Below are positions 11,138 to 21,303 of a stretch of DNA of 64,000 nt, in pieces (within the stretch, counting starts at the first letter, position 1; the number at the start of each line of letters is the position of its first letter). This DNA comes from Rhodopseudomonas palustris (GTDB lineage Bacteria; Pseudomonadota; Alphaproteobacteria; Rhizobiales; Xanthobacteraceae): contig JACRJB010000014.1 of NCBI GenBank assembly GCA_016215605.1, positions 1 to 64,000 of the forward strand, written 5' to 3'. Both the position numbers and the translations under genes were made by a program. The notes below the pieces were generated by a model. The model worked only from the letters and a program-made list of their open reading frames with translations, had not been told where the DNA came from and made no database searches.

Positions 11138-12139
11138 ATGGGCGAAGCGGCTATGCGACAGAATCCGATCTTATTTGTTAATGTTGGTTGGATGGTCAAT
11201 TATCGAGGCCCGGCCGATGATGATCCGACATTAGGGGGGCACGGGTATCTGAAAACACACAAAATCGGATACGAGGCATGGAATTTTATGCCCTATCGCG
11301 GAGTAATGTATGGCTACATTCCTGGATCAAGGCAGGTCAATTTAAGGACGTTGGGATCTTCCGCTTCATTCGCATCATTGCAGGGAGTGACGGTGGTCTG
11401 GATCGCCAGAAGTCCCCAGAATGGGATAACATATATTGTCGGTTGGTACTTGAGTGCAACAGTACATGCTAAAGAGAATCCAATTTCCCTAAAGAGGGGG
11501 AATATTCAGATCAGTTATTGGATAGAGACGGACCCGGCCAATGCTATTTTGCTTCCTGTAGAGCGGCGGCTGTTTATCGTGCCGACGGAGAAGAAGGTAG
11601 GAAACCTAGGTCAGAGTCCAATATGGTATGGGGGGACTGACCAATTTAGAGAGCGTGTCCGTAAATACATAGTCAGCGGCCGACCTGGTGTCAGCAAAGA
11701 GCGTGGTTCGCCAAAGCAGAATGACGCCGAGGCGCGGAAGAAAATCGAGTTGGCCGCTGTAAGGCACGCCGTGCATTTTTATCGCTCCGAAGAAGGTGGG
11801 GGGCGGAATGTCAGGTCTGTTGAAAAGGATGGTGTCGGCTGGGACCTGACAGTCACCGACGTAAATGGCCATTGTTTGTTAGTAGAGGTGAAAGGTCTCA
11901 GCGGGAGGCAGGTCGCCGTCGAGCTTACACCCAATGAATATCAAAAGATGAGATCGACAGAGCATCGAGAAAGCTATGTGATTTATGTCGTTTCGGAGGC
12001 AGGCACCTCAGGGGAGAAATCTCACGTATTCTATTATGATCGAGAGAGTAGCTGCGGCGGAGACCTGGTGTGGCGGGCGAGTGATGGTCGTAAACTAAAA
12101 ATAGATGAGCGGCTAGCTGCTCGTCTTTCGTGTATTTAA
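11138..12139 (+). CDS. DUF3883-type PD-(D/E)XK nuclease-like protein
   Basis: A 333-residue protein with clearly lower GC than its neighbours. The C-terminal third resembles DUF3883, a PD-(D/E)XK-fold domain: a helix KKIELAAVRHAV, then D236 in GVGWDLTV and E250/K252 in LLVEVKG. The N-terminal half (residues 10-115) is a beta-rich domain with GVTVVWIARSP and YIVGWY that could be a PUA/EVE-like reader of modified bases, but this is a weak resemblance. The start may be 11138 or 11153. A restriction-like or defence nuclease is the best reading; activity is inferred from the motif only. Confidence 0.6.
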   Translation: MGEAAMRQNPILFVNVGWMVNYRGPADDDPTLGGHGYLKTHKIGYEAWNFMPYRGVMYGYIPGSRQVNLRTLGSSASFASLQGVTVVWIARSPQNGITYIVGWYLSATVHAKENPISLKRGNIQISYWIETDPANAILLPVERRLFIVPTEKKVGNLGQSPIWYGGTDQFRERVRKYIVSGRPGVSKERGSPKQNDAEARKKIELAAVRHAVHFYRSEEGGGRNVRSVEKDGVGWDLTVTDVNGHCLLVEVKGLSGRQVAVELTPNEYQKMRSTEHRESYVIYVVSEAGTSGEKSHVFYYDRESSCGGDLVWRASDGRKLKIDERLAARLSCI

Positions 12140-12185
12140 GTTGAGCTTTGGCTCTCTGGGTGGTGTTAGTGCGGCATGGGAATCC

Positions 12186-12290
12186 GAAGGGCCGTAGCGT
12201 GGGTTAGGCGAAGCCGTAACTCGCCGCTCCGATCGCAGCGGATTACGCGTTCGGCTAATCCGTCCTATGGGTTATTTCGTGCCTAGGCTT
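12186..12290. repeat. REP-like imperfect palindrome
   Basis: A GC-rich tract with the TGGGTTAGGCGAAGCCGTAA type of sequence is followed by an inverted counterpart ending in GGCTAATCC. It separates the two AT-rich genes of the island and breaks their co-transcription unless it is read through. Confidence 0.5.
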
Positions 12291-12316
12291 GGGGCAGTTC
12301 GGGGCGGCTTTCTGAA

Positions 12317-13072
12317 ATGAAGAAGCAAATTCGTTGGATGACATACAATCAGCGAGTCTCTGCCGATATTGAAAGCGCATTTAGAAGTCCGGATGCGCAA
12401 GAGTTTTTCTGCAAAGAATTTGTGGATAGCCTTGCTGTGCCGATAAAGCAGCAGGAAGAGTGGATCATCAAATTGCTTACAATTCAATTCACTCTAGTTG
12501 TTTTCCTGCTCGTCGGATTTGTCTCTGAAGACGTGACGTTCCATGTTCTTGGAGTCGATCTAAAGAATATTGTTGGTTTGCGGGAGGTTCTGCTTGCACT
12601 GTCGGTGACTGCGGCAATGTTTGCTATGTTGCTTTTGAGCGCTCGGGATACTGCAATTCATATGATAACGGAAATTCAGAAGCGAAAGTCGCCCGAGGCT
12701 TTTCGGCATTTTGCAGCGTTTGCGGCTCCAAGGGCTTTCAATTTTCGTGTGTATCTTCCCAGGGAGTTTGACGATTGGATATTCGAGCGTATTCCAAGAG
12801 GAGTTTACGCGTTCATTTTCTTTCCTCTTTTAGCTTCTGTGTTTGGTAGCTTGATCGCTGTATCGTTTGTTGTCCAATGGATAATTATCACTGAGGTTTG
12901 GAAGGCCCCTATGCTAGGCGCATGGTCATACGCTGCAATCGGATATGCAATAGCGGTCTATCTTTTGAATTGTGTCATACTCTTGCGGAGATCATTGCCG
13001 TTTCCGTACTACGACAGCAGTGAGCTGAAGCGATTGGGTGCTCGCGCCTTGGATATGCCGAGGTTTAAGTGA
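12317..13072 (+). CDS. Four-helix membrane protein of unknown function
   Basis: A 251-residue protein with four hydrophobic segments at about residues 50-69, 90-108, 162-191 and 202-223. The N-terminal 45 residues are cytoplasmic-looking and polar, and a soluble loop of about 50 residues lies between segments 2 and 3. No known family signature is recognised. The gene shares the low GC of the preceding nuclease-like gene, lies on the same strand and is followed by the structured element at 13.1 kb. A membrane effector partnered with the nuclease is possible but speculative. Confidence 0.55.
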   Translation: MKKQIRWMTYNQRVSADIESAFRSPDAQEFFCKEFVDSLAVPIKQQEEWIIKLLTIQFTLVVFLLVGFVSEDVTFHVLGVDLKNIVGLREVLLALSVTAAMFAMLLLSARDTAIHMITEIQKRKSPEAFRHFAAFAAPRAFNFRVYLPREFDDWIFERIPRGVYAFIFFPLLASVFGSLIAVSFVVQWIIITEVWKAPMLGAWSYAAIGYAIAVYLLNCVILLRRSLPFPYYDSSELKRLGARALDMPRFK

Positions 13073-13081
13073 TCGTCGCTC

Positions 13082-13111
13082 TTGACAATTATCCTATATT
13101 GCATATATTCC
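13082..13111 (+). promoter_or_regulatory. Sigma70-like promoter of the structured element
   Basis: TTGACA (13082-13087), a 16-base spacer and TATATT (13104-13109). It matches the promoter at 20623-20652 in 24 of 30 positions, which argues for a conserved promoter module carried by the element. Confidence 0.6.
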
Positions 13112-13700
13112 TATCCATCCCGCCTCACCAAACGAGGGGCGGCTCGCGATCGTCACTAGTCGCGGGGCGGGGTGCGGTGGACGCGGCAGCGTCGGCGCGG
13201 AGGGAGGCGGTTGGGGGCCGCGAGGCAGGGAGTCCGCAGGGCTCGGCCTCGGGGCCTATGGAGCCGCCGAACGACGCGCGGACGACGACGCTGTGCGGTG
13301 CGGGCCGGGGCGGAGATGCGCCCCATCTGCATCGCCTTTGCGCGCCGGCCCAAGTCGTGTGGTCCTGACGCCCGTCGCTGGCGTCAAGGGACGGAGCGCC
13401 TGCACGCCGACCGGCCGCAGGAGTCGAAGGTCCGGACGCTTGCGTCCGCTCCGCTCAGTCCCGACGGTGACGAACCCAAGCGTATCAATCGCCACCGGGG
13501 AGAGCACGAAGCAAGCCGGAAGCCCACCGCGTGCGGAACGCCGGACGTCTCGGTGCTTTCGTGGTTTCTAACTCATGCGCTTTTTACTTTTGCGCATGAG
13601 GCTGCGGACGCATCGTGCGTCCGGCGTTCCGCGCGCCCTCGTTTGTGGCGCGGCGAAGGGGCAGGTCGCCCGTTCGCACCAACCCCCTCGGCGCCCCCGC
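13112..13700 (+). ncRNA. ORF-poor structured element, candidate noncoding RNA
   Basis: About 590 bases of GC-rich sequence start right after a sigma70-like promoter. Apparent reading frames are Arg-rich and lack ribosome sites. The sequence contains several inverted repeats, the largest at 13529-13636. The opening block at 13134-13149 matches the copy at 20669-20684 in 14 of 16 positions. From memory of Bradyrhizobium and Rhodopseudomonas genomes, similar tracts are multicopy, but this must be checked. The right boundary near 13700 is uncertain. From there to 13959 I see only GC-rich sequence without a supported gene, ending at the histidine-kinase start. Confidence 0.5.
13529..13636 (+). repeat. 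Three-arm inverted-repeat structure within the element
   Basis: A 17-bp closing stem (13529-13545 with 13620-13636, one G-U pair as RNA) encloses two perfect hairpins. One is CTCATGCGC/GCGCATGAG (13572-13580 and 13592-13600) around an 11-base T-rich loop. The other is GGACGCA/TGCGTCC (13606-13612 and 13616-13622) around TCG. The second hairpin overlaps the closing stem by three bases, so they coexist in shortened form or alternate. Confidence 0.75.
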
Positions 13701-13959
13701 GCCGTTCAAACAACAGGGGCGATGCCGCATGTCTGCACCCCACTCAAAGGCGCCAGGCCGGGATGATGACGTCGCTCCGCGCGCAGGCGCGCCGGGCGAA
13801 CGCCGCGCCGACCTGCGCGGCGCTTTCGTCGCGGCGAGTCTCGCGGAGCGGGGCCGGCGCGGCCGCCCGGCGGGCGCGCGCCGAATGGCCGCAAGCCGGC
13901 GCGCGGGCCGCTGCCGCCTGTCCTTTTGCCACGGTTTCCGCCATAAAGTCGGCTTCCTC

Positions 13960-20257: not shown

Positions 20258-20626
20258 ATGCAACACGGAGATTTGCTGCAGCCGCTGCCCGCGGCCGGCC
20301 CGGACGAAGCGCTCGATACGCTGCTGGCGCGCGGCGGCGTCCGCATCGAGCGCATCGTCTCTTTCGGCCAGTCCAGCCCCGAGGGCTTCTGGTACGACCA
20401 GGCCGAGGACGAATTCGTGGTGCTGCTGTCGGGCGCCGCAACGCTCCGCTTCGACGACGGCCGCGACGTCGCGCTGACCCGGGGCGCCTGGGTCGACATT
20501 CCCGCCCATTGCCGCCACCGCGTCGAGGCGACTGCGGCGGGCGCGCCGACGGTGTGGCTGACCGTGTTCTGGCCGGCGGCGGCCGACGAGGCCGAAGCGG
20601 ATGGGACCGGCGAAGCGGCCTCTTGA
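20258..20626 (+). CDS. Cupin domain protein
   Basis: A 122-residue small-barrel cupin. The first motif region reads FWYDQAEDEFVVLLSG and the second WVDIPAHCRHRVEATA. Canonical metal histidines are only partly present, so metal binding is uncertain. The start at 20258 follows AAAGGA at 20244. It diverges from the KAS III gene across 282 bp without another feature. The -35 box of the next promoter overlaps its stop codon. Confidence 0.8.
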   Translation: MQHGDLLQPLPAAGPDEALDTLLARGGVRIERIVSFGQSSPEGFWYDQAEDEFVVLLSGAATLRFDDGRDVALTRGAWVDIPAHCRHRVEATAAGAPTVWLTVFWPAAADEAEADGTGEAAS

Positions 20627-20652
20627 CAATAATCCTATTATGATTATAGTCC
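20623..20652 (+). promoter_or_regulatory. Strong sigma70-like promoter with embedded dyad, no gene downstream
   Basis: TTGACA (20623-20628), a 16-base spacer and TATAGT (20645-20650). Within it, ATAATC (20629-20634) and GATTAT (20642-20647) form an inverted repeat that would suit a repressor. It is 24/30 identical to the promoter at 13082-13111. Confidence 0.6.
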
Positions 20653-21152
20653 GCATCGTCCTGTCCGTGAGGGGCGCTTCGCGAGGCGTCGTACAAGCGG
20701 GACAGATCGGCGGGCCGGGAAACCGGTCAGCACGATAGTTCGACGAAGCCGGCATGGCGCTGGCGAAGTCGGACGGACGCGGCGTCCTGCGCGTTGCGGT
20801 TCGCACCCGCACGTCCGGGAGGCAGAGGTCACCGTCCGCCGCTACTACGAGCGGCTGCCGCTTTCGTGGCTGGACGGGCGCAGCAAGGCCGGGGAGATCC
20901 CGCTCCGCTGTGTTCCCGGAAGAACGGTCCCGATGCCCAAAATCGCCGCGGTGGGCGCGCCGGAAGGCGTTGCGCGACGGTCCGCAAAGCCATCGCGAAC
21001 CTCACCACCTTTGCGCCGACCGGCGCGCCCCCACCCCTCGCTGCGATAGCGACGGGTGCAAACCTCGGGCTCGGTGGAGCCGCGAGAACGAAGAGCCGTG
21101 GCTGTTTGATAATCGAATCGGAAATCGTGGAGAGGCGGTGCGCTTGCCACCT
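20653..21152 (+). other. ORF-poor tract, likely diverged copy of the 13.1-kb element
   Basis: About 500 bases without a supportable gene. The block at 20669-20684 matches 13134-13149 in 14 of 16 positions and lies at a similar distance from the shared promoter (46 versus 52 bases). Beyond the first 60 bases I cannot align the two by eye. Reading frames are Arg/Pro-rich and lack ribosome sites. Confidence 0.45.
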
Positions 21153-21159
21153 CCACTCT

Positions 21160-21303
21160 CGTCATGCGCGGGCTTGACCCGCCTGCGGGGCCGAAGCCCC
21201 TTCTGCGCGGCGAAGGCCCGCGGATCCATCGCGCGCGAAGCGCGCTGAACGAAGATCATCTTGCGAACAAGATGGATTGCCGGGTCAAGCCCGGCAATGA
21301 CGG
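21160..21303. repeat. Palindromic repeat with GGCTTGACCCG / CGGGTCAAGCC arms
   Basis: The left arm region (GTCATGCGCGGGCTTGACCC) and the right arm region (GGGTCAAGCCCGGCAATGAC) are inverted relatives. They enclose a GC-rich centre and belong with the repeat at 9010-9032. Confidence 0.65.

Follow-up and report, generated by a model that had tools for sequence, protein, structure and literature searches.

A near-consensus promoter leads, in Rhodopseudomonas palustris, into a long tract in which no credible gene can be found, and the question raised by this locus is what such a tract would be there to produce. The DNA analyzed is a single stretch of 64,000 nucleotides (here called the window), in which we distinguish a type A element, at 13082-13740, and a second, related type B element (Table 1). 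From the comparison of copies in many genomes, we consider it likely that the type A element would be the gene of a lineage-specific, multicopy, large (~620 nt) structured noncoding RNA, with from a few to about 90 dispersed genes per chromosome. The family would range over Bradyrhizobium, the genus of the window and close genera, with type B as its second member type.

Promoter and limits of the element

The promoter TTGACA-N16-TATATT, already recognized when the sequence was read alone, is present, and its two boxes are kept across 15 copies (mean column identity, 0.87 for the -35 box and 0.88 for the -10 box, versus 0.43 for the spacer). Transcription is predicted to start near 13117. In the 40 bases 5' of the -35 box, identity is about that expected by chance (0.27), and in type B it goes from 0.31 upstream of the box to 0.99 within it (37 copies). 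The sharp rise at the -35 box in both types indicates that the conserved unit begins there. In the alignment of the copies, conservation of type A stops at about 13737 to 13740, leaving a noncoding body of ~620 bases 3' of the promoter. No U-rich terminator was seen by eye. A decayed -35 box was observed in one copy (L017).

The limits are also visible from the outside. Of five groups of loci with shared flanks, three have an element clearly set off by its identity from poorly conserved intergenic DNA (mostly 0.76-0.99 in the element versus 0.06-0.4 in much of the adjoining intergenic DNA); in group 0, identity does not drop on the right side, and in group 8, it is low in the 5' part (0.33-0.71).

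Table 1. Features of the type A and type B elements in the window. R1 is a covariance model of the 5' domain (23 sequences).
Feature	Position	Strand	Remarks
Promoter, type A	13082-13109	+	-35 TTGACA 13082-13087, 16-base spacer, -10 TATATT 13104-13109
5' domain	13114-13199	+	R1 match, E 1.6e-12 (the window is one of the 23 sequences of R1)
Closing helix P1 of 5' domain	13119-13125 with 13165-13171	+	
Inner hairpin P2 of 5' domain	13139-13149 with 13153-13163	+	Loop with self-complementary CGATCG
Short hairpin after P2, 5' domain	13174-13184	+	
Variable branched domain	13200-13339	+	Shorter in several paralogues; limits approximate
Middle multi-branch domain	13340-13520	+	Conserved GTGTGGTCCTGACGCCCG (from 13357) pairs with GGGGAGAGCACGA; limits approximate
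3' three-arm domain	13527-13654	+	Outer stem, T-rich-loop hairpin, TCG-loop hairpin
3' part	13655-13740	+	GC hairpin CGGCGC-CCCC-GCGCCG (by eye) and conserved AAACAACAGGGGCGATGNCGCATGTC
Type B element	20620-21115	+	TTGACA 20623-20628, TATAGT 20645-20650, related 5' hairpin, different body, 3' tail GTGGCTGTTTGA

Predicted fold and covariation

The RNA would be started by the element's own sigma-70-type promoter, its first bases closing helix P1, and is predicted to run from the 5' hairpin domain through a variable branched domain, a multi-branch middle domain and a three-arm domain to a terminal hairpin. The helices of the middle domain are found at 236-240/380-384 and 245-256/363-374 in the alignment. 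The 17-bp stem noticed in the sequence-only reading (13529-13545/13620-13636) does pair over 17 positions, one G-U among them, and the two hairpins that it was said to enclose exist (13572-13580/13592-13600 with the T-rich loop and 13606-13612/13616-13622 with the TCG loop). However, the TCG hairpin and the stem share three bases (13620-13622), so that both cannot form in full. Positions 13515-13650 fold at -89.1 kcal/mol, compared with -52.6 +/- 4.1 for 200 shuffles (z -9.0), and the single-sequence minimum of this region is one long hairpin without the three arms. Despite this minimum, comparison of 21 copies favors the three-arm fold. Of the five pairs counted in the TCG hairpin, four are conserved in 21/21 copies, three of these with altered bases, and the rival inner pairs are conserved in 3-9 of 20-21. 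The innermost pair of the TCG hairpin is kept in only 4/20 copies, and three alternative pairs that would lengthen the outer stem are kept in 14-17 of 21; a mixture of the three-arm fold with an extended outer stem is possible.

Covariation in the stems had been named beforehand as a point on which the proposal could fail, and it is present both as compensatory changes and as kept pairing. A total of 104 type A copies were jointly aligned and folded, and 103 were counted; copy L018, without its 3' half, was excluded from the structure set, and L060, L062 and L075, with broken 3' ends, from alignment A3. On the tree of the 103 copies, we counted 64 double compensatory branch events that keep a pair, versus 5-15 when partners were slid by 1-5 columns; in 200 permutations, the mean was 5.1 and the highest count 12. 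The corresponding figures for type B (35 sequences) are 86 double compensatory changes versus 1-6 in slid versions and at most 13 in 200 permuted ones. Paired positions hold more G-U than A-C cells in type A (1201 versus 447) and in type B (505 versus 67), consistent in both types with an RNA made from the strand of the promoter. Many positions are also the same in different species.

Taken separately, the 5' domain has 97.4% paired cells (23 copies), with 14 cells changed on both sides versus 5.0 in shuffles, and the 3' three-arm domain has 89.2%, in a small alignment with a named structure. For both domains, the paired fraction and the covariation score exceed those of all 500 shuffles, slid versions being 32-49% paired. 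A G-test with APC and a tree-simulated null gave no significant pairs when rate weighted and one when uniform, a result that counts against this reading and that we think is due to a few subfamilies dominating the correlations. The covarying complex fold of several hundred nucleotides expected of large ornate noncoding RNAs was found, but without significance in the tree-null test.

In the P2 hairpin, 15 of the 18 distinct loops contain a palindromic 6-mer (6.1 expected; maximum of 12 in 500 shuffles), a comparison made with simple shuffles on related sequences and in which one of the 6-mers, TCGCGA, partly overlaps the P2 stem. The 6-mer varies between copies, the other forms being CGATCG, CGTACG, TCATGA and GACGTC.

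Distribution, copy number and a candidate operator

Other genomic copies, whose existence was a further test of the proposal, were found in many genomes. In a DNA search with the type A element, 21 of 61 genomes gave matches, that of the window included. Ten of the 15 other genomes of the same genus have a near-full-length copy (83-91% identity) and one more has half a copy, and at the thresholds used none was found in two of the 15 (G009 and G014). Two genomes from two other genera of the same family (G020 and G031) have near-full copies (86 and 76%). A scan with one 18-base pattern matched at least 119 stretches, and these 119 copies were used in the counts of flanks and motifs. Among the 80 matches listed, nearly all are from Bradyrhizobium, together with Afipia, Bradyrhizobiaceae, Hyphomicrobiales and a Phenylobacterium metagenome bin; a longer query had no match in this last bin and matched in the other eight of the nine genomes tried.

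With strict filters, R1 found 11 of 297 genomes of the order, ten of them in the family of the window (its own genome included), the single match outside the family being weak (E 1.7e-4). At an E value of <=1e-5, it matched in 113 of the 117 sampled genomes of Bradyrhizobium, a genus central to soybean nitrogen fixation, and had no match in the other four. The genus was recognized as Bradyrhizobium by one of its genomes, G403, whose match positions coincide with those in the record of B. nitroreducens TSA1. In 15 genomes (16 handles, of which G031 and G068 show identical places), R1 matches at an E value of <=1e-3 amount to 3 places in the genome of the window and 1 to 59 in the others. The genome G393 has 88 copies at this threshold and 93 at an E value of <=1. 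The claim of a multicopy family abundant in Bradyrhizobium and Rhodopseudomonas is therefore borne out for Bradyrhizobium, while for Rhodopseudomonas its support comes from the genus of the window alone.

The recurrence of the promoter module and of the element start at 20623 was also recovered (local score of 55 versus a maximum of 43 for 389 random stretches of the window), and the similarity extends further than first described, as the type B element continues to ~21115. Its 3' tail resembles that of the type A copies of another genome (G281). Type B has 28 match places in its own genome, some of which are fragments at contig ends, compared with the 3 places of R1, and 7-13 places in 13 of the 15 other genomes of the genus, with only ten candidates scored per genome. 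Directly 3' of type B, at 21160-21290, there is a palindromic intergenic repeat, REP-like by eye.

In Bradyrhizobium, the promoter spacer often contains the palindrome CCGAAATTCGG, and the 5' motif GATCGTCAC lies upstream in 99 of the 119 copies. Six Bradyrhizobium genomes contain 26, 31, 25, 17, 15 and 1 sites of the 16-base candidate operator TTTACCGAAATTCGGA (with <=1 mismatch), versus 0-1 sites per genome for the reversed control. We fetched 30 of these 115 sites (nearly all exact), and 29 of them lead into a copy; the thirtieth has no match to the element models. Sites also front divergent subfamilies without GATCGTCAC. This putative operator is, as judged from where its sites fall, a mark of the element genes in Bradyrhizobium. 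In the copies L040, L049, L102 and L131, 8 bases rather than 1 lie between the half-sites CCGAA and TTCGG that immediately precede the 5' domain; with this spacing, the reader or the role of the operator may differ in that subfamily.

Flanks, homogenized bodies and relation to known systems

A flank of at least 500 bp is shared with another copy on at least one side by 104 of the 119 copies, which form 16 groups, leaving 15 copies alone; copies with and without a shared flank, and copy numbers of 1 to 88 across genomes, are the observations that bear on presence at variable sites between relatives, as looked for in a MITE. Median core identity in the 15 flank-sharing groups listed is 79-91%. 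Eight fetched loci share the right flank of the element in the window, either at the histidine kinase gene or at the gene that follows. The left flank is common to the window and the compared loci only as pieces of 30 and 103 bases, and a variable region has its edge at the type A element. Two proteins are encoded in this left flank (11138-13072), one of 251 aa with no Pfam match and one that carries a NO VEIN C-terminal domain (NOV_C). One copy (L048), a member of a flank-sharing group, seems by eye to be without most of the body between the upstream module and a GTGTGG motif, and single copies seem dispensable.

Within some genomes, the bodies are kept alike. In G281, where 14 of the 24 counted copies were compared (11 of the 14 stretches reaching a contig end), the sequence of the predicted transcribed region is nearly identical, whereas spacer and upstream DNA differ, and blocks seem by eye to have been exchanged between copies. 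In G393, all 11 copies of one group agree in every one of their first 80 bases, and each of two promoter types occurs with both body groups; the 20 of 88 copies compared there were chosen mostly by equal model score, which biases them toward identical bodies, and L328 was omitted from the identity profile. In type B, four of ten flank-sharing pairs (G000, G001 and G012) are 75-81% alike and six are 86-91% alike, as under plain orthology, so homogenization is partial in this type. Pairs within the same three genomes reach maxima of 94.2, 90.2 and 88.4%; their median is 92.0% in the first (three pairs), and in the other two (G001 and G012) it is 82.5 and 79.5%, not clearly above the median of 81.2% between these two. 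The pattern fits gene conversion of the body that presumably has gone to completion in some genomes but only part of the way in others.

The rival with the most to be said for it is that of a selfish, non-autonomous, promoter-carrying repeat, spread by some transposition system and with a structure that serves its mobility and not the cell, a reading that we regard as unlikely. It is suggested by tens of dispersed copies without a common theme among neighbors, by their near-random spacing along G393 (CV 0.86) and by the abrupt onset of similarity on the left, at the -35 box; PMC11109978 classes, in the part available, such multicopy motifs as candidates for mobile elements or repeats. However, the target-site duplication expected of a MITE was not found as a recurrent feature in type B, the type in which it was sought (both ends located in 21 of 23 copies; a maximum of 1 observed, versus 1-2 in shuffles), and promoter boxes are kept while spacers drift. 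One exact pattern had no match in viral contigs, phage records had no match to the element, and plasmids had one weak match (84 bases). The shared flanks, the lack of target duplications and the homogenized bodies favor an RNA gene family over a mobile repeat, and the near absence from viral, phage and plasmid sequences, together with unrelated neighbors, argues for chromosomal genes acting in trans.

These neighbors also bear on the possibility that the element acts in cis, as a leader or 3' end that controls an adjoining gene. A same-strand histidine kinase gene follows the element in the window, an arrangement common to four relatives, and in 15 of 20 representatives a crude gene finder puts the upstream neighbor on the strand of the element, but the neighboring genes have unrelated functions (19 of 40 predicted neighbor proteins scanned, 14 with a Pfam name), copy L012 is by eye convergent with its neighbor, and bodies are homogenized regardless of what lies beside them; we therefore hold control in cis to be quite improbable. 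A function at the level of DNA, in chromosome organization or replication polarity, with transcription as an incidental feature, is very improbable. Between 59 and 62 of the 88 copies in G393 are co-oriented with the replication fork, with origin and terminus assumed from a rough GC skew, but this bias is modest (p 0.03-0.11 against 60%), and the conserved promoter boxes and the excess of G-U over A-C need an RNA. As for a protein, the tract has open frames of 99 and 274 aa, as may happen in GC-rich DNA, where stops are scarce; however, neither frame matches a Pfam or NCBIfam family, only 40 of 1100 indels counted between copies >85% alike are multiples of three (from sequence pairs, which are not independent), and across 101 copies the open length lies anywhere between 6 and 190 codons. 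An Arg-rich coding gene is accordingly hardly credible, as had been said of the tract from its letters. The accompanying remark that such tracts are annotated as spurious Arg-rich proteins found little to confirm it, the 84-base plasmid match lying under an opposite-strand "hypothetical protein."

Under the preferred reading, that of a family of RNA genes, the element would be transcribed; as the neighbors examined show no common theme, its product would probably act in trans, as a folded RNA. Copies would be redundant, with copy number setting the dose. By analogy with large ornate RNAs, two RNA copies might even pair through the palindromic P2 loop, the most tentative step of the scheme, and for loop-loop pairing between two RNAs, these palindromes are a hint only. 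It is doubtful, although worth stating, that the family forms a class of large self-pairing RNAs with up to ~90 dispersed, coregulated genes per chromosome, each body being overwritten from those of other copies as far as the transcription start, possibly via an RNA (cDNA) template rather than by DNA-DNA conversion.

With Rfam 15, no family reaches its gathering cutoff on the elements scanned. In the whole window, there is one tRNA, located elsewhere than the element, and 16 loci gave one selenocysteine tRNA, also outside it. At an E value of <=0.05, eight further loci gave one tRNA and models below the cutoff, such permissive matches being chance models. Ribosomal and transfer RNAs as candidates were ruled out by Rfam and ARAGORN.

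OLE, GOLLD and ROOL are large bacterial RNAs, each with its own gene. They resemble the element in having several hundred nucleotides and a complex fold, as described in the accessible text of PMC12286853, which also reports kissing loops among their contacts, and OLE is given as ~600 nt (PMC9723947, likewise in part). Self-association through loops may be a further common trait, at which, for the element, only the P2 palindromes hint. Unlike OLE, GOLLD and ROOL, the element occurs as dispersed genes, numbering from a few to 88 in a genome, with homogenized bodies in some genomes, and has no Rfam match. In its dispersed copies, kept alike by concerted evolution while flanks diverge, it is similar to rRNA and tRNA genes, at least as these are summarized in the sources available.

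If it is expressed, this family would, to our knowledge, rank among those bacterial families of large structured RNA genes that have the most copies, and would be, besides rRNA and tRNA, a bacterial case of dozens of dispersed RNA genes in concerted evolution with a shared operator. The family is widespread in Bradyrhizobium yet has no Rfam match, and R1 and a second covariance model, R2, allow it to be tested directly on RNA-seq data that already exist. At the least, spurious protein annotations could be cleaned up.

No published description of the family was found in the open PMC literature, subscription papers being mostly outside this search. In the accessible part of PMC5082802, BjsR1-BjsR10 of B. 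japonicum are described as mostly specific to Bradyrhizobium and in some cases present as 2-4 imperfect copies with RpoD promoters; judged by this description only, they differ from the element in being short RNAs on Northern blots. The same text describes Br-REP1 and Br-REP2 as repeated intergenic hairpins in Bradyrhizobium and Rhodopseudomonas and places Br-REP2, with data not shown, within a larger repeat, so others may already have come across parts of this field. Both are short palindromes, unlike the element, and their consensus sequences were found inside none of 103 copies with <=2 mismatches, Br-REP2 being searched as two halves. Br-REP1 does occur within ~1 kb of 7 of the 20 sampled copies of G393 (L312, L316, L322, L323, L324, L326 and L327).
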